NCBI GenBank assembly: GCA_949775045.1
Contig: OX459104.1
Coordinates: 7,853,427 to 7,917,426 of the forward strand
Length of the DNA stretch: 64,000 nucleotides
From: Metridium senile
Taxonomy: Eukaryota > Cnidaria > Anthozoa > Actiniaria > Metridiidae
Direction: 5' to 3'
Position numbers and translations under genes: made by a program. The first letter of the stretch is position 1. Every line of letters begins with the position of its first letter. Below the pieces are notes generated by a model, which did no database searches, was not told the DNA's origin, and saw only the letters and a list, made by a program, of their open reading frames with translations. Shown in pieces: positions 843 through 36,753 of this stretch.

Positions 843-2093
843 TTAACGGCCAATCAGCTCTTTCAGAACTTGTCGACATGCATGACGAAGATCTGTAAAT
901 CTTACGACATAAATGACAGGATTCGTACATGAGTTTATGCAAAAAACAAATAGCGAAAATAACATGAAAAGAGAAGATGCCTTAGTTATTCTATTAATAA
1001 TCAAGCCTGCACACAACAGTGGTATGTAACAAAGGAGTAACCATCCCATAATAATCAACATTGTGTTTAGGGATTTTTTGTACTTGACAACATCAAAGTT
1101 GTCGCGTGATGAGTTGGGTTGCTGGGCGTGTACTTGTGCTGAGTTGGCTTGATGGGCGTGTACTTGTGGTGAGTTGTGTTGCTTGGCGTGTACTTGTGAT
1201 GAGTTGTGTTGCTGGGCGTGTACTTGTGGTGAGTTGGATTGCTGGGCGTGTACTTGTGGTGAGTTGGCTTGATGTGCGTGTACTTGTGGTGAGTTGTGTT
1301 GCTGGACGTGTACTTGTGATGAGTTGTGTTGCTGGGCGTTTACTTGTGATGAGTTGTGTTGCTGGGCGTGTACTTGTGGTGAGTTGGCTTGATTGGCGTG
1401 TACTTGTGGTGAGTTGGGTTGCTGGGCGTGTACTTGTGATGAGTGGGGTTGCTGGGCGTGTACTTGTAATAAGTTGGGTTGCTGGGCGTGTACTTGTGAT
1501 GTGTAACGATATAGAGCGTTGAAAGACTTGACGTAAAAAACGCAGATCATCAACAATATCAGAAATCCCAAAATCCCGCTTATCATGTCATAATAAATAA
1601 GGAAATTCTCGACGTTCATCACCGTCAATGTGTAGAAAAGCACCAGAATCCATGCCAACAGGACTAATCCAATAACCCTTCTTCTAGTGACAATCAATCT
1701 GTAACGTTGCTTGAGAGTAAGAGCCAAATATCTGTCGATACTTATCAATAATGACATGACGAAAGACATGGAGGCCAGATAAAGTCCTAATATATATGTC
1801 GCACTACTAGTACTGCAAATATCATCTATACTTATCTGCAGATAGAACACTTGCCTTACAATAGTTAAACCACTGTACACTAAAGCAACCAGAAAATCTG
1901 TGAGCGCCATGCTTGCGATCAACAAATAGGAAGGTTTATGTAGATTGGGAGATTTCAAGATGGCGACGACGATGAGAGCGTTTCCAAGTGTTGCAAGAAT
2001 AGAAACACATACATGTAGACATATCATTGCAATTAAAGGCTCCCTTAATATATCAATGTGTTTTAAAATAAATTGCGACAAAGGCTTTTGCAT
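843..2093 (-). CDS. Class A GPCR, cluster gene 1 (13 ICL3 repeats)
   Basis: This is a 416-residue seven-helix receptor without introns. Class A landmarks are present: GN in helix 1, TDF (D2.50) in helix 2, IDRYLAL at the end of helix 3, W in helix 4, CYIP in helix 6 in place of CWxP, and NSCTNPVIY in helix 7, followed by helix 8. Extracellular loop 2 is very short and has no cysteine, and helix 5 lacks proline; both recall the melanocortin/cannabinoid/S1P (MECA) group. The third intracellular loop holds 13 copies of a 10-residue repeat (1107-1496). The paralogs start MNASEYCKQ, but here a small deletion puts the ancestral ATG (2097) out of frame, and the open frame starts at the ATG at 2093. 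The N-terminal Asn sequon and Cys7 of the paralogs are therefore lost. Ligand unknown. It may be functional or newly compromised. Confidence 0.88.
   Translation of the reverse strand: MQKPLSQFILKHIDILREPLIAMICLHVCVSILATLGNALIVVAILKSPNLHKPSYLLIASMALTDFLVALVYSGLTIVRQVFYLQISIDDICSTSSATYILGLYLASMSFVMSLLISIDRYLALTLKQRYRLIVTRRRVIGLVLLAWILVLFYTLTVMNVENFLIYYDMISGILGFLILLMICVFYVKSFNALYRYTSQVHAQQPNLLQVHAQQPHSSQVHAQQPNSPQVHANQANSPQVHAQQHNSSQVNAQQHNSSQVHVQQHNSPQVHAHQANSPQVHAQQSNSPQVHAQQHNSSQVHAKQHNSPQVHAHQANSAQVHAQQPNSSRDNFDVVKYKKSLNTMLIIMGWLLLCYIPLLCAGLIINRITKASSLFMLFSLFVFCINSCTNPVIYVVRFTDLRHACRQVLKELIGR
1107..1496 (-). repeat. 30-bp coding minisatellite, 13 copies, in GPCR gene 1
   Basis: Thirteen in-frame 30-bp units encode variants of QVHAQQPNSS, including forms with QANSP, QHNSS and KQHNSP. 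The period is a multiple of three, so copy changes never shift the frame. Equivalent arrays in the paralogs are at 8874-9125 (8 copies plus two EL insertions), 15379-15468 (3), 18891-18980 (3), 21704-21943 (8), 26042-26131 (3), 31629-31838 (7) and 36340-36489 (5). Confidence 0.95.
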
Positions 2094-2133
2094 TCATTGT
2101 GCCTTTTACAGAGCAGCAATCCAATACAATAAA

Positions 2134-2206
2134 CGTTGTAGCTCAGTTGGTTAACGCGGTGCTTTCGGAATGAGAGGTCCCAAGCTCATTCCGGCCCAGT
2201 GACCTC
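2134..2206 (+). other. tRNA-like sequence, antisense to GPCR gene 1, upstream of its start
   Basis: TAGCTCAGTTGG at 2139-2150 matches the RNA polymerase III A box exactly. It is followed by TTAACGCGGTGC and a B-box-like region around 2180-2195. The anticodon arm does not fold well, so this is a decayed tRNA or the head of a tRNA-derived SINE rather than a working tRNA. It points away from the receptor gene. Confidence 0.5.
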
Positions 2207-2462
2207 ACACTTGGTTCGACGTCTTTCCAATCTGTGTAGCTTTGATAACCTTGAAATATACCCGTAAAACGGAGAAAAGCGCACCTCGGCTTCCTGAGAG
2301 ATCAGCTTACTTCTAGCTGAAGGAACTACCGCTAATTATTAGTGCTTTTCCTATTTTCTTTTGCAGTTCTTTGGTGTGATTCTCGTTCACTTTGGATGGA
2401 CAGGTGCTACAAACTGACAAATGAAACAGTTTCTATAAACTCTTCAAAGTTTTTTCCAGTAT

Positions 2463-2733
2463 TTACAGTGCGACAACTGAAACCACTGCCAACCAAACAA
2501 ATTTTAAAATAAACAGTTTTTCAGATCAAACCAAAAACTTGTAGAGGGTTCTCACAGGCTGAAATGTTTCTTATTCAATCTTGATCTATTCCGTTCACAA
2601 ATAATAAGAACTATTAGCATTTTAAGCAGAAAAGTCAAACATTTGTAAGGATTCTATTGTTCATATTCTCGATCGTGATTGCATGGATAATTATGTTTAG
2701 GTGGTGCTGGTTCCAGTAGTCGCACCGTAATTA
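2463..2733. mobile_element. MITE, TTACAGTGCGAC family, 5' of GPCR gene 1
   Basis: The ends read TTACAGTGCGACAACTG and, inverted, CCAGTAGTCGCACCGTAA. The element occurs at the same place upstream of every intact receptor gene in the cluster. It has no coding capacity. Confidence 0.7.
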
Positions 2734-5514
2734 CTTTTAGTGTAATGACCTAGCTATAATAACGCAGGTGATTTTAGAAAATCGCGCTAGCTGATTGGTT
2801 CGCAAATTTCGGGCTTTTTTCAATAATCGCTTACAGCGTATTAAATATACTAAATAATTAATAATTTTTGTTTGAAGCCGAAGATGTCTTTTTTACACAA
2901 TCAACTGTGTATTTATACTAAAAGAAAAACAAATGGATTCTTGTACAGTTTGAAAAGATATCACTTGTCGCAGAATTAAATCAAGATTTTTAAATTGCAC
3001 CCGCCAGACGGCTTTTTAACATGCACTTGCTATAATGCTTTCAAAGTGCACTCGAAACCCTTCGATTAATTTCCTATACAAACACTGACGCATGCAAACA
3101 TTGACCCAAGCAGTTCAAACTAATCTAACCGCTATTTGTCGTTGTTTTTACTGAGAAACATGGCAACAAAGCAGACCATAATGATTTTCAAAACCATAGT
3201 TATATAGAAATACCGATGCAGTCCACACTAGTCATACTGCCAGTTATCGTATATTTTTTTTAACTCCAAACACTGGTGCAGTTCACTCTAGTCTAACCGC
3301 TAGTTATCGTACATTTTTACATCAATTGTTTTTAGCTTTACAAACACTGTTGCAGATCACACTATCCGCTAGTTATCATACACTACAATAACGGTCCAAC
3401 ACTTTTTTTTAGTTTAAGTCAGGTTTTACTCAATATATTGAGTACATTTTGTGCATCTACATTTAGGTTTATCTTTATCATGAGTTTGGATTACTCACTA
3501 CTATAAAGTGTCATCCTGGGTACAATGATTGACTCGGTATTTTGAATTGTATCTACTCAAACGTATTTACAGTGTACATCTTTAATTATCGTATATTAGA
3601 ATAACTTTATAGGGCATTGAGGCGCATTTTGCGGGCTAAAATGAACAAATCAGAGCCGCTCAGATTAGATTGTTTCTCTTCTGAATGAATTAAAATGATC
3701 CTTTTTGGCTTAATAAAGAGTTGAGGTTTATGCGCGTAAAACCCATGCCTGCGAACCTCAACTCTATTGTTTTATTGTAAGTGCTTGCCTTAGCCTGACA
3801 TTACAAACATCTATTTTAATACACAAGGAAGTTTGGAGACATTTAAAAGGGGATGTGTGACGCCAAAGGTCTAGAAACCTGACTCTATTTAATAAGTAAC
3901 TAGACTCGGCTGCAGGGTTTACTCGTGCCCTTGATCTGGCTCTTAATTATGGAGAGATGCTAAATAGCTAGGAACAGTTGATTATAGTTAGGGACAGATT
4001 ATCATAGGTATAGAAAAACTAACTAGACCCTGGACTCCAGAGTTAACTGGGCTACCAGGTTGTGGCAGTTGTTTCTATGTACCAGTATTCCTGTGTTGCG
4101 AAAAAACATTATTATGAAATTGTTCTTGACAAAAAAACATCACACAAATAAGATGGGCAGTTACTGTGTGATTTTTGGCTTGTACAGAAACCTACCAGAC
4201 ATTTGTTTCTATGTAGTGGGATCCCTGTATCACCAAGTGTTGACATTTCTGCCCCCTCCCCTCCCCCCAAAGCGCTAGTTTAGTATCCGAGAGCTTGAAA
4301 ACTGCCTCAGAAAGAGTTTTATGAAGTTGTTCTCGAAAATTAAACAAAAAATTAAGAACAAGAAAGATAGATAGTTACTAAGGCAATATGTGTGATTTTT
4401 GAAGCAATTTGTGCTGTTTAGAATGGTTTCCAGACAGGCGGATTTGAGATTTCCCACGCCGCGGTTGAGTTCGCTTGGTTTCGTGAAGAAAGCCGTCACA
4501 TTCTCTGACATTGCACATTAATCAATATAAACTCAAGTTTTCTGTTTGAAAGTGCTAGATAATATGCCGTAGCGAATACAATTTTGCTGCCACATCTCAG
4601 CTTCTGTTTTGTATTGTACTCAATCGCTCAAGGTGGTCTTCGATTTAACACATTCCGGCGAAGATTTCCTAGTGTTTTTCAAAAGGTCAACCCTTTTGTA
4701 CAGCAATGATAGGGAATGTCTTGGTGATATATAACCATTATTTTCAGCGGGATCAGAATTAAACGAGCATGTAAAGAGAATAGGATTATCTAAAGATATT
4801 AATATTGACTGCTACATACAAAGACCCACAAATGATCGATTCACACAATGTTATTTACTTCAATGAATTAGGTTCGTTTGAAAATACGTATGAAAAATTT
4901 TGAAATCCTATTTTGATATGTTTACCATCATTAAGCAATTGTTCTTTTACCGAAGTATGAAGCTTGTATATCCATGCATATCCTTAGATGAGACGATTTT
5001 CCACATGGTATCGAAAACCTCAATATACGATCGAAGTCCCTCAAATGCATTAGTTGAATATTTCACTATTTTGAAACGAAAATGGCGATGAACATGAAAA
5101 CTAATACTCCAACTACGAACTTTGATGAATAAAAAGCCAAACTGCACGATTTTTAGTGACGATTGCGACTTTTAACCGCTTTTCAAGCCATTTTACCAAG
5201 ACCGTTTTTGAGTTGTGCTATATATTGCGCCATCTTGAAGTTGACCGGAGAGTAATCGGTATTCACGACTTCATGGCGAAGCCAAAAGAACTTCTGAAAC
5301 GCAAAAATTAGATGTGTCTTCTTGTGTGTTGTGTTTTTCTTTGCATGTCTGTTAAGTTTGAGGACATTTACTTCAATATTGAGCGATTTATGGGTTGTTT
5401 TTGGTGGTTAATCGACAACTTCGTAACATCTTCGTACATCTTCGGACTTTCCGAAGTACAACTTCTGACATGGAAACCAAAACTGAATAAAAAAAACACG
5501 CGTTGCATTTTAAG
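2734..5514. other. 5' flank of GPCR unit 1, no gene seen
   Basis: The part up to about 3650 is homologous to the unit 2 flank at 10274-11200. It includes diverged copies (about 3150-3400) of the satellite monomer that is amplified at 16.2 and 33.2 kb. From 3650 to 5514 I see only AT-rich sequence and short spurious reading frames. Confidence 0.55.
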
Positions 5515-5545
5515 ACTCGTGCCGGCCATAGGCCTGGGCACGAGT
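5515..5545. repeat. Second copy of the ACTCGTGCC hairpin
   Basis: Same 31-bp palindrome as at 104-134. It is followed directly by the 3' flank shared with other receptor units (AATAAGACACT...). Confidence 0.6.
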
Positions 5546-5638
5546 AATAAGACACTCAATAGTACTGAAATATCCATATTCTAGACAAATCGAAAACATC
5601 GATCGGCTCTATTTAAGAGAATTTGAATCATACATAAT

Positions 5639-5780
5639 GGTAATTGAACTGAGTGGAGTGCAATTTGGTCTAAAATCATACGAGTGATTACAAAATTGCA
5701 CGACCGCGCAGCGGGAGTGCAATTTGTTAATCACAAGTATGATTTCAGACCAAAATTGCACGACACGAAGTTCAATTACC
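5639..5780. mobile_element. Short inverted-repeat element (142 bp)
   Basis: The arms begin GGTAATTGAACT and end AGTTCAATTACC. They pair over about 50 bp with scattered mismatches (GTGCAATTTGGTCT against AGACCAAAATTGCAC). It lies immediately outside the terminal repeat of the Crypton-bearing element. Confidence 0.6.
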
Positions 5781-6109
5781 ACTTAATTATATCCATTTTC
5801 AAATCTGCAATGATAATACTCAAACTACAAATAGATATCTTTGAAATCAAATGAAATATTTATTAGTTGACTTTCGAGTATTTCAATCGTTTTTAATACA
5901 TTATTTTTAAAATTAATACGATACTATTTTGTAACCGGAAATCAAATGTTATTATGAAAATGTTCAAAAAATGGTCACGTGATGATTACATAACCATACA
6001 CGTCACTGGCACATGGTAATAAAATGTCATTACAAAATGGCTGCTCACGACATCAAGTCTAACGTTCTAAAAGCAGTCAAAAATGCTGCTTCTGAGAGTC
6101 TCTTTTTAA

Positions 6110-8609: not shown

Positions 8610-9752
8610 TTAACGGCCAATCAGCTCTTTCAGAACTTGTCGACATGCATGACGAAGATCTGTAAATCTTACGACATAAATGACAGGATTCGTACATGAG
8701 TTTATGTTAAATACAAATATCGAAAATAACATGAATAGAGAAGATGTCATAGTTATTGTATTAATAATTAAGTTTGCACACAACAATGGTATATAACAAA
8801 GGAGTAGCCATCCCATAATCATCACCATTGTGTTCAGGGATTTCTTGTACTTGACAACAGTAAAGTTGTCGTGTGATGAGTTGGGTTGCTGGGCGTGTAC
8901 TTGTGATGAGTTGGGTTGCTGGGCGTGTACTTGTGATGAGTTGGGTTGCTGGGCGTGTACTTCTAGTTCTGATTGGTTGGATTGCTGGGCGTGCACTTGT
9001 GATGAGTTGGGTTGCTGGGCGTGTACTTCTAGTTCTGATTGGTTGGATTGCTGGGCGTGCACTTGTGATGGGTTGGGTTGCTGGGCGTGTACTTGTGAAA
9101 GGTTGTTTTTCTGGGCGTGAATTTGTGATGTGTAACGATGGAGAGCGTTGAAAGACTTGACGTAAACAACGCAGGTCATCAACAAGGTCAAAAATCCCAA
9201 AATCCCGCTTATCATTTGATGATAAATGAGGAGTTTCTCGACGTTTAACACCGTCAACGTACACAAAAGCACCAAACTCCACGCCAAGAGGATTATTCCA
9301 ATAACCCTTCTTCTAGTGACAATCAATCTGTAACGCTGCTTGAGAGTAAGAGCCAAATATCTGTCGATACTTATCAATAATGACATGACAAAACACATCG
9401 CAGACAGATATAATTCTAATGTATAAAACGCATTACTAGTACTGCAAATATCATCTATACTTATCTGCAGATAGAACGTCAGTTTTGCAATGGCAAAATT
9501 ACTAAGCAATATACCAACAAGAAAATCAGCGAACGTCATACTTGTGATCAACAAATAGGAGGGTTTATGCCGTAGATTGGGTGATTTCAAGATGGCGACG
9601 ATGATGAGAGCGTTTCCAAATGTTGCAAGAACAGAGACACATACATGTAGGCATATCATTGCAATTATTGGCTCCCTTAATATATCAATGTGTTTTACAA
9701 TAAAATAATGATGCATCAAAGGCTGTTGCTTGCAGTATTCGCTTGCATTCAT
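8610..9752 (-). CDS. Class A GPCR, cluster gene 2 (8 ICL3 repeats)
   Basis: I choose the ATG at 9752 (MNASEYCKQQPLMHHYF), which is the start shared by the paralogs and gives 380 residues. The frame also opens upstream to an ATG at 9803, but those 17 residues derive from flank brought close by loss of the tRNA-like segment. Helix motifs match the family: ADF in helix 2, IDRYLAL, CYIP, NSCTNPVIY. One extra Arg sits in intracellular loop 1 (SPNLRHKP). The ICL3 array (8874-9125) has eight 10-residue units, and two of them carry an in-frame EL insertion that is unique to this gene. The 3' flank is the type shared with genes 4 and 6. Confidence 0.9.
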   Translation of the reverse strand: MNASEYCKQQPLMHHYFIVKHIDILREPIIAMICLHVCVSVLATFGNALIIVAILKSPNLRHKPSYLLITSMTFADFLVGILLSNFAIAKLTFYLQISIDDICSTSNAFYTLELYLSAMCFVMSLLISIDRYLALTLKQRYRLIVTRRRVIGIILLAWSLVLLCTLTVLNVEKLLIYHQMISGILGFLTLLMTCVVYVKSFNALHRYTSQIHAQKNNLSQVHAQQPNPSQVHAQQSNQSELEVHAQQPNSSQVHAQQSNQSELEVHAQQPNSSQVHAQQPNSSQVHAQQPNSSHDNFTVVKYKKSLNTMVMIMGWLLLCYIPLLCANLIINTITMTSSLFMLFSIFVFNINSCTNPVIYVVRFTDLRHACRQVLKELIGR

Positions 9753-13260: not shown

Positions 13261-13376
13261 GACTTCAGTTGTCTTTTTAAAACCGCCAATCACCTCTTTC
13301 AGAACTTGTCGACATGCATGAGGAAGATCTGTAAATCTTACGACATAAATGACAGGTTGCGTACATGAGTTTATAC
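13261..13376 (-). pseudogene. GPCR 3'-end fragment (helix 7 and helix 8 only)
   Basis: The minus strand reads INSCTQPVIYVVRFTDLPHA and then CRQVLKEVIGG, the last ~35 codons of the family. The NPxxY asparagine is changed to glutamine. An insertion at the end removes the normal stop, so the frame runs on. Everything 5' of helix 7 is missing. At 13376 the sequence switches to satellite monomers that belong to the upstream flank of plus-strand gene 3. Confidence 0.9.
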
Positions 13377-13640
13377 AAAAAAAAAATTGCTGTAAAAATG
13401 TACGATAACTTGTTGTTAAAATAGTGTGAACTACACCAGTGTTTCTAAGAAAACAATTGATGTAAAAATGTACGATAACTAGCGGTTAGACTGGAGTGAA
13501 CTGCACCAGTGTTTGGTGTAAAAAATGTACGATAACTGGCAGCTGTTTGACTAGTGTCGACTGCGTCGGTGTTTCTAAGAAATCAATTGCAGTAACAATG
13601 TATGATATATCATAACTATATGGGTTTTGAAAATCAAAAG
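13377..13640. repeat. Diverged 70-bp satellite monomers upstream of GPCR gene 3
   Basis: Three or four degenerate copies of the monomer containing CAATTGATGTAAAAATGTACG and ATAACTAGCGGTTAGAC. They are the unamplified form of the arrays at 16.2 and 33.2 kb. Confidence 0.7.
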
Positions 13641-14751: not shown

Positions 14752-15732
14752 ATGAATGCAAGCGAATACTGCAAGCAAAAGCCTTTGATGCATCCGTATT
14801 ATCTTTTTTTAAAAGATATTGATTCATCTTTGGAGCCAATAATTGCAATGATATGCGTACACGTATGTGTTTCTATTCTTGCAACATTAGGAAACGCTCT
14901 CGTCATCGTTGCCATCTTTAAATCACCCAATCTACATAAACCCTCCTATCTGTTGATCTCAAGTATGGCGTTCGCTGATTTTTGTATTGGTACAGTGCTT
15001 AGTTGTTTTTCCATTACAAGACTGACGTTCTATCTGCAGATAAGTATAGCTGATATTTGCAGTAGTAGTAATGTGTTTGAAACATTAACACTATATCTGT
15101 GTGCGATGTGTTTTGTCATGTCATTATTGATAAGTATCGACAGATATTTGGCTCTTACTCTAAAGCAACGTTACAGATTGATTGTCACTAGAAGAAGGGT
15201 TCTGCGAATAGTCCTGTTGGCGTGGATTCTGGTGCTTTTCTACACGTTGACGGTGATTAACGTCGAGAAAATCCTCATTTATTATCAGATGATAACCGGG
15301 ATTTTTGGATTTCAGATCTTGTTGATGACCTGCGTTTTTTACGTCAAGTCTTTCAACGCTCTCCATCGTTACACAGCACAAGTTCACACCCAGCAACCCA
15401 ACCCATCACAAGTACACGCCCAGCAACCCAGCTCATCACAAGTTCACGCCCAGCAACCCAACTCATTGCTCGACAACTTTAATGTTGTCAAGTACAAGAA
15501 ATCACTAAACACAATGGTGATTATTATGGGATGGTTACTCCTTTGTTATATACCATTGTTGTGTGCAAACTTCATTATTAATAGAATAACTAAGGCATCC
15601 TCTCTTTTCATATTATTTTCGATATTTGTTTTTCGCATAAACTCATGTACGAATCCTGTCATTTATGTGGTACGATTTACAGATCTTCGTCATGCATGTC
15701 GACAAGTTCTGAAAGAGCTGATTGGCCGTTAA
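14752..15732 (+). CDS. Class A GPCR, cluster gene 3 (3 ICL3 repeats)
   Basis: 326 residues, single exon, starting MNASEYCKQKPLMH with a good initiation context (CACAATG). Residue 2 is an Asn sequon (NAS), the only candidate glycosylation site in a 25-30-residue N-terminus. N48 lies in helix 1, D76 in helix 2, DRY at 130-132, W158 in helix 4, CYIP at 265-268 and NPVIY at 301-305. Extracellular loop 2 is about nine residues with no cysteine. The ICL3 array has three units (15379-15468), the first beginning QVHTQQPNPS. The N-terminus and helix 2 (FCIGTVLSCFSITR) are the most diverged parts. It is the first gene of the plus-strand run. Confidence 0.92.
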   Translation: MNASEYCKQKPLMHPYYLFLKDIDSSLEPIIAMICVHVCVSILATLGNALVIVAIFKSPNLHKPSYLLISSMAFADFCIGTVLSCFSITRLTFYLQISIADICSSSNVFETLTLYLCAMCFVMSLLISIDRYLALTLKQRYRLIVTRRRVLRIVLLAWILVLFYTLTVINVEKILIYYQMITGIFGFQILLMTCVFYVKSFNALHRYTAQVHTQQPNPSQVHAQQPSSSQVHAQQPNSLLDNFNVVKYKKSLNTMVIIMGWLLLCYIPLLCANFIINRITKASSLFILFSIFVFRINSCTNPVIYVVRFTDLRHACRQVLKELIGR

Positions 15733-16240: not shown

Positions 16241-16890
16241 GTCTTAGAAAACAATTGATGTAATAATGTACGATACTAGTGGTTAGACAATTGTGGACTG
16301 TGTCCATTATTCTTAGAAAACAATTGATGTAAAAATGTACGATAACTAGTAGTGAGACAAGTGTCGACTGAGTCCACGTTTCTTAGAAAACAATTGATGT
16401 AAAAATGTACGATACTAGTGGTTAGACAAGTGTCGACTGCGTCCACGTTTCTTAGAAAACAATTGATGTAATAATGTACGATAACTAGTGGTTAAACAAG
16501 TGTGGACTGCGTCGATGTTTCTCAGAAAATAATTGATGTAATAATGTACGATAACTAGTAGTGAGACAAGTGTGGACTGCGTCGATGTTTCCAAGAAAAC
16601 AATTGATGTAATAATGTACGATACTAGTGGTTAGACAAGTGTCGACTGCGTCCACGTTTCTTAGAAAACAATTGATGTAATAATGTACGATAACTAGTGG
16701 TGTGACAAGTGTGGACTGCGTCCGTGTTTCTTAGAAAACAATTGATGTAATAATGTACGATAACTAGTGGTTAAACAAGTGTGGACTGCGTCGATGTTTC
16801 TCAGAAAATAATTGATGTAATAATGTACGATAACTAGTAGTGAGACAAGTGTGGACTGCGTCGATGTTTCCAAGAAAATAATTGTATTAA
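16241..16890. repeat. 69/70-bp satellite array, ~9 copies
   Basis: The monomer contains TTAGAAAACAATTGATGTAA, TAATGTACGATAACTAGTGG and TAGACAAGTGTGGACTGCG. Units are 70 bp, or 69 bp where GATACTAG replaces GATAACTAG. Two 69-bp units are spaced 209 bp apart (16411 and 16620), the same higher-order period as in the larger array at 33.2 kb. It lies between the 3' flank of gene 3 and the 5' flank of gene 4. Confidence 0.95.
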
Positions 16891-17656
16891 AAATTTATGA
16901 TAACTGTTTTGAAAATCATCATAGTCTGCTCTGTTGTCATGTTTCTAAAGAAACAATTGCAGTAAAAAGTTACTATAACTAAATGTTCTAATCTAATGTT
17001 TTTTTTAATAATTTAAATTGAATCAGTGTTTCTAAGTAAACAATTAGATTAAAACTGTACGATAACTTATATGGGTTTTGATAATCATTATAGTATGCGT
17101 TGTTGTCATGCATGCTTCTAAATAAACAATTGCAGTAAAAAAGTACTATAACTACATTTTCTTATGTAATTGGTTTTCAACTTATGTTAATTGATTCAGT
17201 GTTTCTAAGTAAACAATTGGAGAAAAAACAACGATAACTAGCGGTTAAATTAGTTTGAACTGCTTGGGTCAGTGTTTGCATGTGTCAGTGTTTGTATAGG
17301 AAATTAATCGAAGGGTTTGGGATGCAGTTTGAAAGCATTATAACAAACAAGTGCATGTTAAAAAACAGTCAGGCCGGAGTGCAATTTAAAAATCTTGAAT
17401 TTAATCTGAACAAGTGATAACTTTTCAAACTGTAAAAATAATCCTTTTTTTATTATTTTAGTATAAAGACACGGTTGATTATTGTGTAAAAAAAGACAAT
17501 TTCAAACAAAAATTATTAATTATTTAGTATTTCTAAAGGCGCTCAAAACGCTGTAGGTGATTATTGAAAAATTGTGAAATTTGCAAAACCAATCAGCTAG
17601 CGCGATTTTCTAAAATCACCTGCGTTATTATAGCTAGGTCATTACACTAAAAGTAA

Positions 17657-18263: not shown

Positions 18264-19244
18264 ATGAATGCAAGCGAATACTGCAAGCAACAGCATATGA
18301 TGGATCCTCATTATTTTATTGTAAAACACATTGATATATTAAGGGAGCCTATAATTGCAATGATATGCCTACATGTATGTGTGTCTATCCTTGCAACATT
18401 CGGAAACGCTCTCGTCATCGTTGCCATCTTTAAATCACCCAATCTACATAAACCCTCCTATTTGTTGATCACAAGTATGGCGTTCGCTGATTTTCTTGTT
18501 GGTATATTGCTTAGTAATTCTGCCATTGCAAAAATGACGTTCTATCTGCAGATAAGTATAGATGATATTTGCAGTTCTACTAATGCGTTTGATACTATAG
18601 GAGTATATCTGACTGCGATGTGTTTCGTCATGTCATTATTGATAAGTATCGACAGATATTTGGCTCTTACTCTCAAGCAACGTTACAGATTGATTGTCAC
18701 TAGAAGAAGAGTTATTGGAATAGTCCTGTTGGCGTGGATTATTGTGCTTTTGTTTACGTTGACGGTGTTGAACGTCGAGAAACTCCTCATATATTATGTG
18801 ATCATAATCGAGATTTTGGGATCTCTGGTCTTGTTGATGACCTGCGTTTTTTACGTCAAGTCTTTCAACGCTCTCCACCGTTACACATCACAAGTACACG
18901 GCCAGCAATCCAACCCATCACAAGTACACGGCCAGCAACCCAACCCATCACAAGTACACGCCCAGCAACCCAACTCATCACACGACAACTTCGATGTTGT
19001 CAAGTACAAGAAATCCTTGAACACAATGGTGATTATTATGGGATGGTTACTTCTTTGTTACATACCATTGTTGTGTGCAAACTTAATTATTAACACAATA
19101 ACTATGGCATCTTCTCTTTTCATGTTATTTTCATTATTTGTTTTTGGCATAAACTCATGTACGAATCCTGTCATTTATGTCGTAAGATTTACAGACCTTC
19201 GTCATGCATGTCGACAAGTTCTGAAAGAGCTGATTGGCCTTTAA
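18264..19244 (+). CDS. Class A GPCR, cluster gene 4 (3 ICL3 repeats)
   Basis: 326 residues, single exon, start MNASEYCKQQHMMDPHYF. All family landmarks are at the positions given for gene 3. The ICL3 array (18891-18980) has three units, two with glycine (QVHGQQ). From residue 57 onward it is almost identical to gene 6; before that it differs (ALVIVAIFKSP against ALIIVAILKSP). The last residue is Leu, not Arg. The 3' flank (19245-19560) is shared with genes 2 and 6. Confidence 0.92.
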   Translation: MNASEYCKQQHMMDPHYFIVKHIDILREPIIAMICLHVCVSILATFGNALVIVAIFKSPNLHKPSYLLITSMAFADFLVGILLSNSAIAKMTFYLQISIDDICSSTNAFDTIGVYLTAMCFVMSLLISIDRYLALTLKQRYRLIVTRRRVIGIVLLAWIIVLLFTLTVLNVEKLLIYYVIIIEILGSLVLLMTCVFYVKSFNALHRYTSQVHGQQSNPSQVHGQQPNPSQVHAQQPNSSHDNFDVVKYKKSLNTMVIIMGWLLLCYIPLLCANLIINTITMASSLFMLFSLFVFGINSCTNPVIYVVRFTDLRHACRQVLKELIGL

Positions 19245-21076: not shown

Positions 21077-22207
21077 ATGAATGTAAGCGAATACTGCAAG
21101 CAACAGCTTATGATGCATCCACATTATTTTATTGTAAAACACATTGATATATTAAGGGAGCCTATAATTGCAATGATATGCCTACATGTATGCGTGTCTA
21201 TCCTTGCAACATTTGGAAACGCTCTCATCATCGTTGCCATCTTGAAATCACCCAATCTACATAAACCCTCCTATTTGTTGATCACAAGTATGGCGTTTGC
21301 TGATTTTTGTATTGGTATAGTGCTTAGTAGTTTTACCATTGCAAGACTGACGTTCTATATGCAGAGAGGTATAGATGATATTTGCAGTACTAGTAATGCG
21401 ATTGATACATTGGCACATTATCTGTCTGCGGTGTGTTTCGTCATGTCATTATTGATAAGTATCGACAGATATTTGGCTCTTACTCTCAAGCAGCGTTACA
21501 GATTGATTGTCACTAGAAGAAGGGTTATTGGAATAATCCTGTTGGCGTGGACTTTGATGCTTTTCTGTACGTTGATATTGTTCAACGTCGAAAAACTCCT
21601 CATTTATTTTCAGATGATTAGCGGAATTTTTGGATTTCTGGTCTTGTTGATGACCTGCGTTTTTTACGTCAAGTCTTTCAACGCTCTCCATCGTTACACA
21701 TCCCAAGTACACTCCCAGCAACCCAACCCATCACAAGTACACGTCCAGCAACCCAACCCATCACAAGTAAACGCCCAGCAACACAACCCATCACAAGTAC
21801 ACGCCCAGCAACCCAACTCATCACAAGTACGCGCCCAGCAACCCAATCCATCACAAGTACGCGCCCAGCAACCCAACTCATCACAAGTACGCGCCCAGCA
21901 ACCAAACTCATCACAAGTACACGCCCAGCAACCCAATCCATCCCACGACAACTTTGATGTTGTCAAATATAAGAAATCTCTGAACACAATGGTGTTTATT
22001 ATAGGATGGTTAATCCTTTGTTATATACCAGTGTTGTGTGCAAACATAATTGTTATTAGAATAACTAAGGTATCTTCTATTTTTTATGTATTTTCGATAT
22101 TTGTTTTTCGCATAAACTCATGTACGAATCCTATCATTTATGCCGTAAGATTTACAGATCTTCGTCATGCATGTCGACAAGTTCTGAAAGAGCTGATTGG
22201 CCGTTAA
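21077..22207 (+). CDS. Class A GPCR, cluster gene 5 (8 ICL3 repeats)
   Basis: 376 residues, single exon, start MNVSEYCKQQLMMH; the sequon at Asn2 is kept as NVS. The ICL3 array (21704-21943) has eight units, three with QVRAQQ in place of QVHAQQ, which makes the loop more basic. DRY, CYIP and NSCTNPIIY are intact. Helices 2-3 (CIGIVLSSFTIARLTFYMQRG) and 6-7 (PVLCANIIVIRITKVSSIFY) are more diverged than in genes 4 and 6. A polyadenylation signal (AATAAA) lies 430 bp downstream at 22636. Confidence 0.92.
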   Translation: MNVSEYCKQQLMMHPHYFIVKHIDILREPIIAMICLHVCVSILATFGNALIIVAILKSPNLHKPSYLLITSMAFADFCIGIVLSSFTIARLTFYMQRGIDDICSTSNAIDTLAHYLSAVCFVMSLLISIDRYLALTLKQRYRLIVTRRRVIGIILLAWTLMLFCTLILFNVEKLLIYFQMISGIFGFLVLLMTCVFYVKSFNALHRYTSQVHSQQPNPSQVHVQQPNPSQVNAQQHNPSQVHAQQPNSSQVRAQQPNPSQVRAQQPNSSQVRAQQPNSSQVHAQQPNPSHDNFDVVKYKKSLNTMVFIIGWLILCYIPVLCANIIVIRITKVSSIFYVFSIFVFRINSCTNPIIYAVRFTDLRHACRQVLKELIGR

Positions 22208-23226: not shown

Positions 23227-24330
23227 TTATATCTCAACATCAAAGAAAGTCAAGAAACAAAAAACAAGTTTTACAGAGAATTTTAGCTGACATAAGCAAG
23301 GGAACCACGATGGATGTTGAAACGAGTTGAAATTGAAGATGCTCTCCCAGTTAATTGAATTGACTTCATTAATTAGAAGCTCTTCGTTGAGCTTTGAAAA
23401 GTCTCTCCTAAAGTGGTTGACTTTCTCAGAAGTGACCATTAGCTTATTGATAATAAGAAAATTTGGCATGTGATCAGATATGTCAGAGAGCAAGTTCCCA
23501 CTTATAGTATGATATTCTAGAGAATTAAAAAAAATATTATCAATAAGTGTAGCTGAATGCTCAGTAATCCTGGTTGGGTTTAAAATTTGAGGAAGAAAAT
23601 TGTAAGACCCTAAGGTATTGACAAAGAGCTCAGTGTCAGGATGACTATCAAAATTCAAAAGATTTATATTGAAATCACCCATAAGTATACAAATCTTATT
23701 TTCTAAAGAAATTTTATCAATAGTATTGAAGATATAATTCAATGTATCCTTAATTTTAGAATTTGGGTGTCTATAAAGAATTCCACATATGATATTTTTT
23801 TCAGACTTGTTATCAATTTCTAACCAGAGTGATTCGTGACTAGGGTCACAAACACTGAGGTCACTTCTTTCTAATGCTGAGAGGGTATCATCAATATAAA
23901 CTCCTACTCCACCAGCATTTGATAAGGAATCTTGGTGAAAAAATTGATAACCAGGAATATCTATATTAGAGACAGGAGCTACATCTTTACTTAGCTTAGT
24001 CTCAGATATACCAATTATAGAAAAATGATGATCCATATCACTTAGTAATTCATTTAGTGAATCCAAATTGGATGACAGACTTCTAGTGTTGCAATGTATA
24101 GCAGAAAAAGATTGTCCTGATTTCAACATTTGAATTTTAGCACTAGAGTGAAAATCATGTGCTGAGTAGTAATTAAAATTAGTTTGAGATGGAAGTTGAC
24201 CATCAGCATCAACATCAGTAATTATAAGACCATGAGACTTACTGATTTGATTATATAAATCAAAAAAGTGTGTCGATGCATGACAACTTTCCTCGCTATC
24301 GCTAGCCGTGAATATTCTTGTACTTTTCAT
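23227..24330 (-). pseudogene. LINE endonuclease fragment, truncated before the reverse transcriptase
   Basis: A 367-codon open frame shows the apurinic-type endonuclease domain in order: IHCNTRSL, IIGISETKL, GGVGVYID, GILYRHPNSK, ILMGDFNINLL, DNIFFNS and SDISDHMP. The catalytic Glu, Asp/Asn and Asp-His positions look intact. No reverse transcriptase follows, because the frame runs out at 23227. The first ~20 codons (MKSTRIFTASDS) come from host flank that matches sequence near 19930, so the annotated ATG is not native. It is a 5' portion of a non-LTR element, open by chance or recent age. Confidence 0.85.
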
Positions 24331-25414: not shown

Positions 25415-26395
25415 ATGAACGTAAGCGAATACTGCAAGCAACAGCTTATGATGCATCCGCATTATTTTATTGTAAAACACATTGATATATTAAGGGAGCC
25501 TATAATTGCAATGATATGCCTACATGTATGTGTGTCTATCCTTGCAACATTCGGAAACGCTCTCATCATCGTCGCCATCTTGAAATCACCCAATCTACAT
25601 AAACCCTCCTATTTGTTGATCACAAGTATGGCGTTCGCTGATTTTCTTGTTGGTATATTGCTTAGTAATTCTGCCATTGCAAAAATGACGTTCTATCTGC
25701 AGATAAGTATAGTTGATATTTGCAGTACTACTAATGCGTTTGATACTATAGGAGTATATCTGACTGCGATGTGTTTTGTCATGTCATTATTGATAAGTAT
25801 CGACAGATATTTGGCTCTTACTCTCAAGCAACGTTACAGATTGATTGTCACTAGAAGAAGAGTTATTGGAATAGTCCTGCTGGCGTGGATTATTGTGCTT
25901 TTGTTCACGTTGACGGTGTTGAACGTCGAGAAACTCCTCATATATTATGTGATCATAATCGAGATTTTGGGATCTCTGGTCTTGTTTATGACCTGCGTTT
26001 TTTACGTCAAGTCTTTCAACGCTCTCCACCGTTACACATCACAAGTACACGGCCAGCAATCCAACCCATCACAAGTACACGGCCAGCAACCCAACCCATC
26101 ACAAGTACACGCCCAGCAACCCAACTCATCACACGACAACTTTGATGTTGTCAAGTACAAGAAATCCCTGAACACAATGGTGATTATTATGGGATGGTTA
26201 CTTCTTTGTTACATACCATTGTTGTGTGCAAACTTAATTATTAACACAATAACTATGGCATCTTCTCTTTTCATGTTATTTTCACTATTTGTTTTTGGCA
26301 TAAACTCATGTACGAATCCTGTCATTTATGTCGTAAGATTTACAGACCTTCGTCATGCATGTCGACAAGTTCTGAAAGAGCTGATTGGCCGTTAA
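25415..26395 (+). CDS. Class A GPCR, cluster gene 6 (3 ICL3 repeats), chimeric
   Basis: 326 residues, single exon. The 5' flank and residues 1-56 match gene 5 (MNVSEYCKQQLMMH, ALIIVAILKSP). From about residue 74 to the 3' flank it matches gene 4 (ADFLVGILLSNSAIAKMTFY, QVHGQQ repeats). The switch lies between 25582 and 25636. Landmarks: N48, D76, DRY 130-132, W158, CYIP 265-268, NPVIY 301-305. One private change is V100 for Asp in the otherwise conserved IDDICS before helix 3. Confidence 0.92.
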   Translation: MNVSEYCKQQLMMHPHYFIVKHIDILREPIIAMICLHVCVSILATFGNALIIVAILKSPNLHKPSYLLITSMAFADFLVGILLSNSAIAKMTFYLQISIVDICSTTNAFDTIGVYLTAMCFVMSLLISIDRYLALTLKQRYRLIVTRRRVIGIVLLAWIIVLLFTLTVLNVEKLLIYYVIIIEILGSLVLFMTCVFYVKSFNALHRYTSQVHGQQSNPSQVHGQQPNPSQVHAQQPNSSHDNFDVVKYKKSLNTMVIIMGWLLLCYIPLLCANLIINTITMASSLFMLFSLFVFGINSCTNPVIYVVRFTDLRHACRQVLKELIGR

Positions 26396-29470: not shown

Positions 29471-29476
29471 AAGTAA

Positions 29477-31004: not shown

Positions 31005-32102
31005 ATGAATGCAAGCGAATATTGCATGCAAAAGCGTTTCATGTATCGTTATTTTATTGTGAAACACATTGATATATTAAGAGAGCCTATAATTGCAATG
31101 ATATCCTTATTCGTATGTGTGTCTATTCTTGCAACATTTGGAAACGCTCTCATCATCGTCGCCATCTTGAAATCCCCCAATCTACATAAACCCTCTTATT
31201 TATTGATCACAAGCATGGCGTTCGCTGATTTTCTTGTTGGTTTAGTGTTTAGTGGTTTTACCATTGCAAGACTGACGTTCTATATGCAGATAAGTATAGA
31301 TGATATTTGCAGTACTAGTAATGCGTTTTATACATTAGGATTATATCTGTCTGCGATGTGTTTCGTCATGTCATTATTGATAAGTATCGACAGATATTTG
31401 GCTCTTACTCTCAAGCAACGTTACAGATTGATTGTCACTAGAAAAAGAGTTATTGGAATAGTCCTGTTGGCTTGGATTCTGGCGCTTTTCTACACGTTGA
31501 CGGTGTTTAACGTCGAGAAACTCTTCGTTTATTATCAGATGATAAGCGGGATTTTGGGATCTCTGACCTTGTTGATGACCTGCGTTGTTTACGTCAAGTC
31601 TTTCAACGCTCTCCATCGTTACACATCACAAATTCACGCCCAGAAACTCAACCTTTCACAAGTACACGCCCAGCAACCCAACCCATCACAAGTACACGCC
31701 CAGCAACCAAACTCATCACAAGTACAGGCCCAGCAACCAAACTCATCACAAGTACACGCCCATCAAGCCAACTCAGCACAAGTACACGCCCATCAAGCCA
31801 ACTCATCACAAGTACACGCCCAGCAACCCAACTCATCACGCGACAACTTTGATGTTGTCAAGTACAAGAAATCCCTGAACACAATGGTGATTATTATGGG
31901 ATGGTTACTCCTTTGTTATATACCATTGTTGTGTGGAGACTTCATTATTAATAGTTTAACTAAGGAATCTTCTCTTTTCATTCTCTTTTCGATATTTGCT
32001 TTTTGCATAAACTCATGTACGAATCCTGTCATTTATGTCGTAAGATTTACAGATCTTCGTCATGCATGTCGACAAGTTCTGAAAGAGGTGATTGGCCGTT
32101 AA
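31005..32102 (+). CDS. Class A GPCR, cluster gene 7 (7 ICL3 repeats)
   Basis: 365 residues, single exon, start MNASEYCMQKRFMYRYF, one residue shorter at the N-terminus than its paralogs. DRY, CYIP and NSCTNPVIY are intact. The ICL3 array (31629-31838) has seven units. The first (QIHAQKLNLS) is like that of gene 2, and two units have HQANS as in gene 1, so array variants are shared between genes on opposite strands. Helix 7 has an unusual start (SLTKESSLFILFSIFAFC). It ends KEVIGR, as gene 8 does. Confidence 0.92.
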   Translation: MNASEYCMQKRFMYRYFIVKHIDILREPIIAMISLFVCVSILATFGNALIIVAILKSPNLHKPSYLLITSMAFADFLVGLVFSGFTIARLTFYMQISIDDICSTSNAFYTLGLYLSAMCFVMSLLISIDRYLALTLKQRYRLIVTRKRVIGIVLLAWILALFYTLTVFNVEKLFVYYQMISGILGSLTLLMTCVVYVKSFNALHRYTSQIHAQKLNLSQVHAQQPNPSQVHAQQPNSSQVQAQQPNSSQVHAHQANSAQVHAHQANSSQVHAQQPNSSRDNFDVVKYKKSLNTMVIIMGWLLLCYIPLLCGDFIINSLTKESSLFILFSIFAFCINSCTNPVIYVVRFTDLRHACRQVLKEVIGR

Positions 32103-32509
32103 AGACAACGTCAGAAAATAGAAGTAAAGGTTATATACTGGGGAAAAGCTAAGGGTTGATATATCTCATATCCACTCAGGTATTCACATATTTCAAAAAG
32201 GGTGGACACTGAGAATGGCGATTGCACGACCCTTAGGAATTGTGGTTACGCATACAACATATCCTAGCGTTTTTCTGGATTGCTAAGCACAGTTTCATCA
32301 ATTTCTAAGGTCTTCTCTACTATATGGGGCTGTTTATGTGCAGCAAATTCGTTTTCTGCCTCAAAACATGTATATATAAAAGAAAATATCAAAGACCCAC
32401 TGTACGTAAAGAGACTGGTGCCGGTAGTTTATCCTTCATTGGAGTAAACTGTACTGATTCTCCACAAAATTAAATAGAAAGAGTTGCTAACTGACCTTTG
32501 AAACGTCTT

Positions 32510-33225
32510 TAAGGTTACAGTCCACGTTCGCGGTGTGCTTTCACATGCTCTCAGTTAAAAGTGTGTTTACCGCGTCATTTTACAATAATAATAGACATAT
32601 TATATATCATTTAAAGCTTATATAACAGAGAATAAGACTGTGTATGTTTTGTTATATACAACAATTTTCTGTAAGGTATGCTCTTCGAAAAACCTCAAAA
32701 TTAACCGCCTTCAATGCGAGTTTTTTAAAAACGTATAAGTCAAAAAGTTCATACTGCTTTGCTGTCATTTCTTCGTTATGTCAATCAACACATATTGGTC
32801 TTTAAAACCGTGTCCAGTTTTTTTGATAAAATGCTTAGTTTTAGAGTTATGGCCCATTTTGTTATTTAACTTGAAGTTTTAACAATGAGTCGACTTTGAA
32901 ACACATTTATTCAAGAACGTAGCATTTTATCGAAAAAACTGGACACGGTTTTGAACACATGTATGTGCTGATTGACATAATGCAGAAATGACGGCAAAGT
33001 AGTAGGAACTTTTGGACTTATACTTTTTTTAATGAAAGCGTTCGATTTTGAGGTTTTTCGTGGAGCATTGGTTAAAGATATTCTTTTTCTTACAAAAACT
33101 TACATAGTCTTATTCTCTGTTATATAAGCTTGAAAATGATATATGCTTTGTCTATCTTTATTGTTAAGTGACGCGCTAAGCAATTTTTAACTGAGAGCAC
33201 CCCGCGAAGGTGGACTGTAACCTTA
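32510..33225. mobile_element. 716-bp fold-back element inserted at the edge of the satellite
   Basis: The left end TAAGGTTACAGTCCACGTTC and the right end, ending CTGTAACCTTA, are inverted. The arms pair over about 330 bp (TGTCCAGTTTTTTTGATAAAA near the centre matches its inverse). The equivalent site after gene 3 (16241) reads straight through from CCTTTGAAACGTCTTA into the satellite, so the insertion is younger than the unit duplication. Confidence 0.85.
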
Positions 33226-34492
33226 AGTTAGAAAACAATTGATGTAATAATGTACGATACTAGTGGTTAGACAAGTGCATGTGGACTGCGTCGATGTTTC
33301 TTAGAAGACAATTGATGTAATAATGTACGATACTAGTGGTTAGACAAGTGTGGAGTGCGTCCGTGTTTCTTAGAAAACAATTGATGTAATAATGTACTAT
33401 AACTAGTGGTTAGACAAGTGTGGAGTGCATCCATGTTTCTTAGAAAACAATTGATGTAATAATGTACGATACTAGTGGTTAGACAAGTGTGAAGTGCGTC
33501 CGTGTTTCTTAGAAAACAATTGATGTAATAATGTACGATAACTAGTGGTTAGACAAGTGTGGAGTGCGTCCATGTTTCTTAGAAAACAATTGATGTAATA
33601 ATGTACGATAACTAGTGGTTAGACAAGTGTGGAGTGCATCCATGTTTCTTAGAAAACAATTGATGTAATAATGTACGATACTAGTGGTTAGACAAGTGTG
33701 AAGTGCGTCCGTGTTTCTTAGAAAACAATTGATGTAATAATGTACGATAACTAGTGGTTAGACAAGTGTGGAGTGCATCCATGTTTCTTAGAAAACAATT
33801 GATGTAATAATGTACGATAACTAGTGGTTAGACAAGTGTGGAGTGCATCCATGTTTCTTAGAAAACAATTGATGTAATAATGTACGATACTAGTGGTTAG
33901 ACAAGTGTGAAGTGCGTCCGTGTTTCTTAGAAAACAATTGATGTAATAATGTACGATAACTAGTGGTTAGACAAGTGTGGAGTGCATCCATGTTTCTTAG
34001 AAAACAATTGATGTAATAATGTACGATAACTAGTGGTTAGACAAGTGTGGAGTGCATCCATGTTTCTTAGAAAACAATTGATGTAATAATGTACGATACT
34101 AGTGGTTAGACAAGTGTGAAGTGCGTCCGTGTTTCTTAGAAAACAATTGATGTAATAATGTACGATAACTAGTGGTTAGACAAGTGTGGAGTGCATCCAT
34201 GTTTCTTAGAAAACAATTGATGTAATAATGTACGATAACTAGTGGTTAGACAAGTGTGGAGTGCGTCCATGTTTCTTAGAAAACAATTGATGTAATAATG
34301 TACGATACTAGTGGTTAGACAAGTGTGGACTGCGTCCGTGTTTCTTAGAAAACAATTGATATAATAATGTACGATAACTAGTGGTTAGACAAGTGTGGAC
34401 TGCGTCGATGTTTCTTAGAAAACAATTGATGTAATAATGTACGATAACTAGTGGTGAGACAAGTGTGGACTGCGTCGATGTTTCCAAGAAAA
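33226..34492. repeat. 69/70-bp satellite array, ~18 copies, with 209-bp higher-order repeat
   Basis: Monomers are as in the array at 16.2 kb. The 69-bp variant (GATACTAG with GTGAAGTGCGTCCGTG) recurs at 33468, 33677, 33886, 34095 and 34304, exactly 209 bp apart. Each is followed by two 70-bp units (GATAACTAG). The array lies between the 3' flank of gene 7 and the 5' flank of gene 8. Confidence 0.97.
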
Positions 34493-35098
34493 TAATTGTA
34501 TTAAAAATGTATGATAACTGTTTTGAAAATCATCATAGTCTGCTCTGTTGTCATGTTTCTAAAGAAACAATTGCAGTAAAAAGTTACTATATTTGAATGT
34601 TCTAATCTAATGGGTTTTTTAATAATTTAAATTGAATCAGTGTTTCTAAGTAAACAATTGGATTAAAGCAACGAAAAATAGCGGTTAAATTAGTTTGAAC
34701 TGCTTGCGTCAATGTCTGCATGCGTCAGTGTTTGTGTACTGAAGAGATTAATCGAAGGGTTTCAAGTGCAGTTTGAAAGCATTATAACAAGTGCATGTTA
34801 AAAAGCCATCTGGCGGGTGCAATTTAAAAATCTTGATTCTAGCTATTCTGCACAAGTGATATGTTTTCAAACTGTACAAGAATCCATTTGTTTTTCTTTT
34901 AGTATAAATACACAGTTGATTTTGTAAAAAGACACCTTCGGCTTCAAACAAAAATTATTAATTATTTAGTATTTCTAAAGGCGCGCAAAACGCTGTAGGT
35001 GATTATTGAAAAAAGCCCGAAGTTTGCGAACCAATCAGCTAGCGCGATTTTCTAAAATCACCTGCGTTATTATAGCTAGGTCATTACACTTAAAGTAA

Positions 35099-35345
35099 TT
35101 ACAGTGCGACTACTGGGTCCACAAAAACATAATTATCCAATCACGATCGACAATATAAACAATAGAATCCCTACAGATGTTTGACTTTTTTGCTTAAAAT
35201 GCTAATAGTTTTTATTACATGTGAACAGAATAGATCAAGATTGAATAAGAAACATCTTATTCTGTGAGAAACCTCTACAATATTTCTCACAAACTATCTT
35301 GAAATTTGTTTGGGTGCAATCACTGGTTTCAGTCGTCGCACTGTA
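35099..35345. mobile_element. MITE, TTACAGTGCGAC family, 5' of GPCR gene 8
   Basis: The left end is TTACAGTGCGACTACTGG; the right end is TTTCAGTCGTCGCACTGTAA. Confidence 0.8.
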
Positions 35346-35608
35346 AATACTGGAAAGAACTTAGCAGAGTTTATAGAAACTGTTTCATTTGTCAGTTTGT
35401 AGCACCTGTCCATCCAAAGTGAGCGAAAATCACTTCACAGAACTGCAAAAGAAAACAGGAAAAGCACCAATAATTAACGTTGGTTTCTTCAGCTAGAAGT
35501 TAAATAATCTCCCAGGAAGCCGAGGTGCGCTTTTCTCCGTTTTTCGGGTATATTTAAAGCCACTCAAAGCTACACAGATTGGAAAGACGTCGAACCAAGT
35601 GTGAGGTC

Positions 35609-35676
35609 ACTGGGATTCGAGTTCGGGACCTCTCACTCCGAAACTTAGCACCGCGCTAACCATCTGACCAACAAAG
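35609..35676 (-). other. tRNA-like sequence antisense to GPCR gene 8
   Basis: The inverse strand reads TTGGTCAGATGGTTAGCGCG, then AGGTCCCGAACTCGAATCCC. This is the best-preserved B-box side in the cluster. The anticodon stem does not pair, so a working tRNA is unlikely. Confidence 0.5.
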
Positions 35677-35712
35677 TTTCTTGTAGTAGCTTACGGAAGT
35701 GTAATAAGCACA

Positions 35713-36753
35713 ATGAATGCAAGCGAATACTGCAGGCAACAGCCTTTGATGCATCCGCATTATTTTATTGTAAAACACATTGATATATTAAGGGTGCCTA
35801 TAATTGCAATGATATGCCTACATGTATGTGTGTCTATCCTTGCAACATTTGGAAACGCTCTCATCATCGTCGCCATCTTGAAATCACCCAATCTACATAA
35901 ACCCTCCTATTTGTTGATCACAAGCATGTCGTTCGCTGATTTTCTTGTTGGTACAGTGATTAGTGGTATTGCCATTGCAAAATTGACGTTCTATCTGCAG
36001 ATAAGTATGGATGATATTTGCAGTACTAGTAATGCGTTCGATACATTAGGAGTATATCTGACTGCGATGTCTTTAGTCATGTCATTATTGATAAGTATCG
36101 ACAGATATTTGGCTCTTACTCTCAAGCAACGTTACAGATTGATTGTCACTAGAAGAAGAGTTATTGGAATAGTCCTGTTGGCGTGGATTCTTGTGCTTTT
36201 GTTTACGTTTACGGTGTTGAACGTCGAGAAACTCTTCATATATTATCTGATCATAATCGGAATTTTGGGATTTCTGGCCCTGTTTATGACCTGCGTTTTC
36301 TACGTCAAGTCTTTCAACGCTCTCCATCGTTACACATCACAAGTACACGCCCAGCAACCCGACCCATCACAAGTACACGCCCAGCAACCCAACTCATCAC
36401 AAGTACACGCCCAGCAAACCAACCCATCACAAGTACTCGCCCAGCAACCCAACTCATCACAAGTACACGCCCACCAACCCAACTCATCACGCGACAACTT
36501 TGATGTTGTCAAGTACAAGAAATCCTTGAACACAATGGTGATTATTATGGGATGGTTACTCCTTTGTTATATACCAATGTTGTGTGCAATCTTATTTATT
36601 AATACAATAACTAAGGCATCTTCTCTTTTCATGTTATTTTCACTATTTATCTTTTGCATAAACTCATGTACGAATCCTGTCATTTATGTCGTAAGATTTA
36701 CAGATCTTCGTCATGCATGTCGACAAGTTCTGAAAGAGGTGATTGGCCGTTAA
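35713..36753 (+). CDS. Class A GPCR, cluster gene 8 (5 ICL3 repeats)
   Basis: 346 residues, single exon, start MNASEYCRQQPLMHPHYF. The ICL3 array (36340-36489) has five units, with private variants QVLAQQ and HQPNSS. DRY, CYIP and NSCTNPVIY are intact. In helix 3 the usual AMCFVMSLLIS is AMSLVMSLLIS. Body residues are closest to genes 4 and 6 (LGVYLTAM) but the C-terminus (KEVIGR) is as in gene 7, suggesting mixed ancestry. It is the last receptor of the cluster. Confidence 0.92.
   Translation: MNASEYCRQQPLMHPHYFIVKHIDILRVPIIAMICLHVCVSILATFGNALIIVAILKSPNLHKPSYLLITSMSFADFLVGTVISGIAIAKLTFYLQISMDDICSTSNAFDTLGVYLTAMSLVMSLLISIDRYLALTLKQRYRLIVTRRRVIGIVLLAWILVLLFTFTVLNVEKLFIYYLIIIGILGFLALFMTCVFYVKSFNALHRYTSQVHAQQPDPSQVHAQQPNSSQVHAQQTNPSQVLAQQPNSSQVHAHQPNSSRDNFDVVKYKKSLNTMVIIMGWLLLCYIPMLCAILFINTITKASSLFMLFSLFIFCINSCTNPVIYVVRFTDLRHACRQVLKEVIGR

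Follow-up and report, generated by a model that had tools for sequence, protein, structure and literature searches.

Copy number of a 30-bp minisatellite in the third intracellular loop of eight tandem class A receptors from the sea anemone Metridium senile

Does a tandem repeat inside a coding sequence change what the protein does, or is it simply tolerated? This question is raised by a 64,000-nucleotide stretch of the Metridium senile genome (assembly GCA_949775045.1, contig OX459104.1, positions 7,853,427 to 7,917,426 of the forward strand; hereafter, the window). Between its positions 843 and 36753 lie eight intact open reading frames (ORFs) for G protein-coupled receptors (GPCRs), designated A to H, with 13, 8, 3, 3, 8, 3, 7, and 5 copies, respectively, of a 10-residue unit in the third intracellular loop (ICL3).

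Repeat units of receptors A to H

All eight ORFs run from ATG to stop, A and B on the minus strand and C to H on the plus strand. Inspection of the ORFs and cutting of the arrays into units confirmed the number of intact receptors, their lengths, and the copy numbers given in the initial annotation of this DNA. A separate count of motifs with at least 5 of 10 residues identical to QVHAQQPNPS reproduced the same eight values, and Tandem Repeats Finder detected a period-30 array in each gene (scores 152–603). In the array of receptor A, residues 10 apart were identical 91 times out of 122 (z = 17.9). Copy numbers were taken from one haplotype. The receptor genes are located as follows:

843..2093, minus strand: receptor A, 13 units, 416 amino acids (aa), array at 1106-1501; family N-terminus 10 residues short
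8610..9752, minus strand: receptor B, 8 units (two of 36 bp), 380 aa, array at 8872-9130
13285..13434, minus strand: C-terminal piece of an additional receptor copy, closest to H (34 C-terminal residues, 91% identical)
14752..15732, plus strand: receptor C, 3 units, 326 aa, array at 15377-15466
18264..19244, plus strand: receptor D, 3 units, 326 aa, array at 18886-18982
21077..22207, plus strand: receptor E, 8 units, 376 aa, array at 21699-21942
25415..26395, plus strand: receptor F, 3 units, 326 aa, array at 26037-26133; units identical to those of D in DNA
31005..32102, plus strand: receptor G, 7 units, 365 aa, array at 31624-31839
35713..36753, plus strand: receptor H, 5 units, 346 aa, array at 36335-36490

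The 50 units comprise 37 distinct DNA and 32 distinct protein sequences. As many as 48 are 30 bp long, while two, both in gene B, carry a 6-bp in-frame insertion and measure 36 bp; all eight frames are open throughout the array. The earlier description of a 30-bp unit gained and lost in frame thus holds with regard to the frame, and for the unit size with those two exceptions. Protein length equals 296 plus 10 residues per copy exactly in C, D, E, F, and H, whereas B is 4 residues longer and G 1 shorter than expected. Receptor A falls 10 residues below the formula because of two N-terminal gaps. The proposal that length follows copy number is therefore exact in the former five genes and approximate in A, B, and G. 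At the start of receptor A (2085-2097), an out-of-frame ATG 4 bases upstream overlaps the start codon and may lower translation.

Receptor class and distribution of variable positions

The assignment to class A made in the initial annotation was supported by Pfam 7tm_1 matches in all eight proteins, with E-values from 1.1e-23 to 4.8e-30 and scores of 84.5–105.3 bits (curated cut-off 30.5). AlphaFold2 models built with 59 aligned sequences reached a mean predicted local distance difference test (pLDDT) value of 87.4 for H and 79.0 for A. Values were mostly above 90 in the helices and below 50 in most of the array (in receptor H, the array segments within residues 230-258 were mostly below 50), and the models placed the array between helices 5 and 6, in agreement with the ICL3 position proposed earlier. 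The low-confidence arrays are presumably disordered. In a Foldseek search with the model of H, the 50 PDB matches listed were all class A receptors (TM-score by query 0.60–0.67), including beta1AR, alpha1A, A2A, and CB1. Residues N1.50, D2.50, DRY, W4.50, P6.50, and NPxxY, which we take to be class A marks, are invariant in A to H except for V/I within NPxxY.

Residue 3.32 is G, E, T, G, A, G, G, and G in A to H, respectively. As none of the eight has the aspartate that we take to mark aminergic and trace amine-associated receptors (TAARs), an aminergic or TAAR identity was rejected. Position 3.25 is occupied by S or T in all eight receptors, and the short second extracellular loop (ECL2), as delimited here, holds no Cys in any of them; these two cysteines presumably form the disulfide between transmembrane helix (TM) 3 and ECL2 in the majority of class A receptors. 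Because D3.32, Cys 3.25, and the ECL2 Cys are absent, we read no function into database labels like adrenergic-like or TAAR-like. Pairwise synonymous divergence (dS) outside the arrays is 0.05–0.24. We regard A to H as orphan class A GPCRs that arose by tandem duplication not long ago.

We compared the two sides of the receptor outside the arrays. Among A to H, 67 of 106 positions vary in the outer helix halves and 25 of 106 in the inner halves; the intracellular loops (1/21) and the C-terminal part (2/18) bring the cytoplasmic total to 28/145. By comparison, 26 of 33 positions that we assume to line class A pockets commonly are variable. The ratio of nonsynonymous to synonymous differences (pN/pS) was 0.81 in the outer halves and 0.26 in the inner halves. 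The difference in pN between the outer halves and all cytoplasmic positions was 0.121 (permutation P 1e-4); pS was also somewhat higher in the outer halves, with a smaller difference (two-sided P 0.018). Hence, the statement that the receptors share nearly the same helices is valid for the cytoplasmic halves but not for the extracellular ones. The idea that ligand recognition is kept had to be abandoned, as the outer helix halves and pocket positions are the most variable. On the basis of these counts, the family looks like a chemoreceptor-type expansion, in which the ligand side has diversified and the transducer face has been fixed.

Origin and turnover of the array

Homologues were searched in a set of 5.8 billion proteins (E up to 0.001), giving 222 and 258 proteins, of which the best 120 each were listed. 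Among the matches listed, we measured the 58 nearest full-length or nearly full-length relatives, leaving out fish and other distant receptors, P0126, several near-duplicates (P0054-P0060), and the fragments P0061, P0087, P0123, and P0127. The length of ICL3 was counted from 5.56 to 6.37, the range of the mutation analysis in the available text of PMC10033409. The window receptors have loops of 61, 61, 61, 81, 101, 111, 115, and 161 residues. In 51 of the 58 relatives the loop measures 36–44 residues, and in the other seven 47, 47, 47, 69, 72, 121, and 220. Fifty-one relatives were aligned (46 at 36–44 residues, five at 47, 47, 47, 69, and 220), and seven lie outside the alignment (five at 41–44, the others at 72 and 121). 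A QVHAQQPNPS-like motif, at the same threshold of at least 5 of 10 identical residues, was found once in 32 relatives, was unrecognisable in 26, and occurred twice or more in none of the 58. A typical relative loop, that of P0018, reads RYTSQVHAQQPNPSQGNFDVVKYK, i.e., a single unit followed by an exit sequence as in the window. The simplest reading of these sequences is that the unit predates the array and that a pre-existing loop motif was turned into a 30-bp coding minisatellite. The homologues come largely from often short contigs, and short loops may be over-represented among the 58 relatives because assemblies made from short reads are prone to breaks at repeats of 30 bp; in six named Actinia proteins (below) the loops are short as well.

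The nearest named relatives among the matches listed are from Actinia tenebrosa (28–41% identical). Six of them (P0014, P0016, P0031, P0042, P0044, and P0048; 32–41% identity) have loops of 39–41 residues, each with the motif once at the 5-of-10 level. In a seventh protein from Actinia, P0053 (30% identity), the loop measures 72 residues and lacks the motif; P0065 was left out of the measurement. The Actinia orphan receptors thus belong to the same wider family as A to H, but with one motif copy and a short loop. In P0036, with its 121-residue loop, the repeat period was insignificant (reached by 151 of 2000 shuffles).

Within the cluster, two adjacent units of gene B are repeated exactly (66 bp), and Tandem Repeats Finder reported a 120-bp higher-order period in gene A; both point to recent local duplication. 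Between genes, the last units are the closest (1.25 differences) and the first units the farthest (5.32). No homogenisation of units within genes was detected, with a mean difference of 3.30 within genes vs. 3.54 between them (P 0.15). We built trees from the 5′ flank with TM1-5, from TM1-5 without the flank, and from the 3′ part. They conflict in all six cross-comparisons by the approximately unbiased (AU) test (P ≤0.004), one of which was not rejected by the Shimodaira–Hasegawa (SH) test (P 0.06). Three sets of 3′ flanks, barely alignable with each other, can be distinguished (A; B/D/F; C/E/G/H); the flank alignments are therefore rough, and part of the 5′ flank of G does not align. As far as sequence comparison reaches, the 3′ flank sets and the conflicting trees show that the paralogues exchanged sequence. 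The 3′ flanks of C and G differ by 3.4% and their pre-array parts by 11.9%, and a C/G breakpoint could not be placed. E and F have a common 5′ flank (4.6% different) and no common 3′ flank. Breakpoints were placed near the middle of TM2 for E/F and directly downstream of the stop codon for F/H, neither of them at the array.

Several further features lie around the receptor genes. A dispersed element recurs ahead of all eight receptor genes, at a distance of about 280–640 bp in A, B, C, D, E, F, and H and of about 1.3 kb in G, and is present at one site outside the cluster (47178-47442). The sequence just before several ATGs gave us the impression, from motifs that we take to be characteristic, of an antisense tRNA-derived short interspersed element (SINE); ARAGORN found no tRNA genes, and a box scan likewise found nothing. 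A minisatellite of 70 bp, whose higher-order period is 209 bp, occurs at 16242-16905 and 33228-34519, upstream of D and H. Inside the cluster, an endonuclease-like ORF (23227-24330, minus strand; Pfam Exo_endo_phos, 26.0 bits, cut-off 24.5) is perhaps a fragment of a long interspersed element (LINE). Downstream are a 28-bp satellite of about 67 copies with 95% matches (38052-39933) and an ORF for a C2H2 zinc-finger protein (40077-42140, minus strand) with a long in-frame Asp/Gly/His/Asn-rich repeat, a second coding repeat in the window. An ABHD14-like hydrolase is encoded at 45846-46613 (plus strand); an identical protein is present in the database on nine contigs (at most 1289 bases), so that the database also covers more DNA of this species or a very close one. 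Among viral contigs, a degenerate 24-base array pattern had a single match, in one contig (L001), which we took as chance.

Loop length at the G-protein site and rival explanations

In the available text of PMC10033409, an ICL3 longer than about 46 residues is reported to gate G-protein selectivity, and a long loop grafted into a short-loop receptor changed coupling. If 5.56–6.37 is the right count, most one-unit relatives lie below this mark and all eight window receptors above it. We tentatively favor, at a little less than an even chance, the reading that the 30-bp minisatellite has made ICL3 a flexible gate whose action at the G-protein site depends on its length. Slippage or unequal exchange would add or remove unit copies in frame, the resulting 61–161-residue loop would act as the gate, and coupling selectivity or gain would change once the loop exceeds the mark of about 46 residues reported for other GPCRs. 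The exact unit sequence would matter little. The array could also supply phosphorylation sites absent from the short tail: 21 residues, with one Thr, follow NPxxY, and the arrays hold 6–19 Ser/Thr. Receptors without a phosphorylatable tail, D4R included, are said in the available part of a preprint (PMC13105114) to recruit arrestin via ICL3. It is also conceivable, though rather improbable, that the step from one unit (about 41 residues) to at least three (at least 61) took the whole clade across the gating threshold and that copy number has served as an evolvable dial ever since. Each paralogue would then combine its own pocket with its own loop length, and coupling selectivity or gain would be set gene by gene through in-frame changes of the minisatellite.

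Some results weigh against a length-dependent gate. The threshold of about 46 residues may use another count than 5.56–6.37, and as all eight loops exceed it, the gating model predicts no simple switch inside the clade. For the 48 units of 30 bp (1128 pairs), pS was 0.091 and pN 0.126, giving a pN/pS of 1.38 (1.08–2.09 by bootstrap over units, which are not independent). Of the 63 possible amino-acid changes 28 were seen, and of the 20 possible silent ones 7, which is no depletion (P 0.60); one of the 28 depends on the trimming of the 36-bp units. Neither pN/pS nor the change counts show purifying selection or constraint on the unit sequence, a pattern compatible with neutrality as well as with a spacer that acts through its length. 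Since the arrays show no sign of purifying selection, neutral drift competes seriously with the tuning of coupling suggested in the initial annotation, and we give it the same chance as the flexible gate. Under neutrality, the minisatellite would sit in an insertion-tolerant loop, where copy number drifts, only frameshifts are purged, and length barely affects signalling. The presumed disorder of the array and copy numbers without order along the cluster are in line with this. However, the narrow range of 36–44 residues in 51 of 58 relatives indicates that length is not freely tolerated there, and all eight genes retain a minimum of three units, though eight related genes are few.

A different role, multivalent docking, is unlikely in our view. 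In this case each unit would be a functional copy of the ICL3 motif that binds a single partner, whether G protein, kinase, arrestin, or scaffold, and the number of units would set the valency. Conservation by position correlated between the 50 units and 26 distinct one-copy motifs, which come from those 27 of the 51 aligned relatives whose loop has no gaps (Spearman 0.67, P 0.03; 0.64, P 0.046 with distinct units; 0.78 in a first run with 31 hand-copied motifs), although ten positions make a small test. Positions V3, Q7, and N9 are conserved in both sets, and the V3 codon is silently changed in 6 of 48 units while the protein has only V or I. On the other hand, pN/pS for the unit as a whole is not below 1, the motif is unrecognisable in 26 of 58 relatives, and the codons of the invariant Q2 and Q7 are also without silent change, so that recent common origin can explain them. 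That the genes are silent or dying, i.e., unexpressed or with the array spliced out, seems improbable. The receptor fragment at 13285-13434, the missing ten N-terminal residues of receptor A with the out-of-frame ATG over its start, and the absence of the window receptors among the matches listed in the protein set, where the ABHD14-like neighbor was found, would agree with it. Yet, the eight frames are open, pN/pS is 0.26 in the inner helix halves, and a simple consensus scan, which may pass over weak sites, revealed no strong donor-like site in the eight coding sequences; given the tendency of short-read assemblies to break at such repeats, the absence from the protein set says little. Least probable of all is that the array serves mainly as a recombination substrate shuffling TM1-5 with TM6-7 among paralogues, length change being a by-product. 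The conflicting 5′ and 3′ trees and the C/G and E/F flank mismatches speak for it, but both placed breaks (E/F and F/H) are away from the array.

The initial annotation knew of no receptor family built this way. The kind of change is in fact described: according to the available text of PMC3164202, exon 3 of human DRD4 carries an in-frame 48-bp coding variable number tandem repeat (VNTR) in ICL3, with 2–11 copies and reported functional effects. Both cases are in-frame coding tandem repeats in the ICL3 of class A GPCRs. DRD4, however, has a 48-bp unit in one gene with alleles in the population, whereas A to H have a 30-bp unit in eight paralogues, lack D3.32, and use a motif already present once in relatives. 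ICL3 repeats across a paralogue family did not turn up in searches of the open-licence PMC literature; a Ciona paper was not on point, since the repeats in its available text are extracellular LDL-A. Gated long-ICL3 receptors (beta2AR, M1R, CB1R, V1AR, beta1AR, and D1R) share with A to H a loop of more than about 46 residues by the G-protein site, but are not described as tandem arrays in the available text of PMC10033409, while A to H are close paralogues differing in copy number of one unit. Closer in taxonomy is Nematostella P0125 ("dopamine receptor 4" in the database), a sea anemone class A receptor 27% identical to H, whose ICL3 is likewise repetitive, with a period of 12 residues reached by none of 2000 shuffles. 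Its unit is degenerate and not recognisably related to that of A to H (best match 3/10), and it is one protein. Repeats in ICL3 may thus have had more than one origin among anemones.

The locus suggests that a DRD4-type change arose independently here, and perhaps again in the Nematostella receptor. Work on ICL3 length in the available text of PMC10033409 used cut and grafted loops. Here, eight natural receptors have a near-identical cytoplasmic surface outside the array and loops of 61–161 residues in increments of about 10 residues per unit, and one-unit relatives are available besides. Such a natural loop-length series could test the ICL3-length threshold model put forward there.

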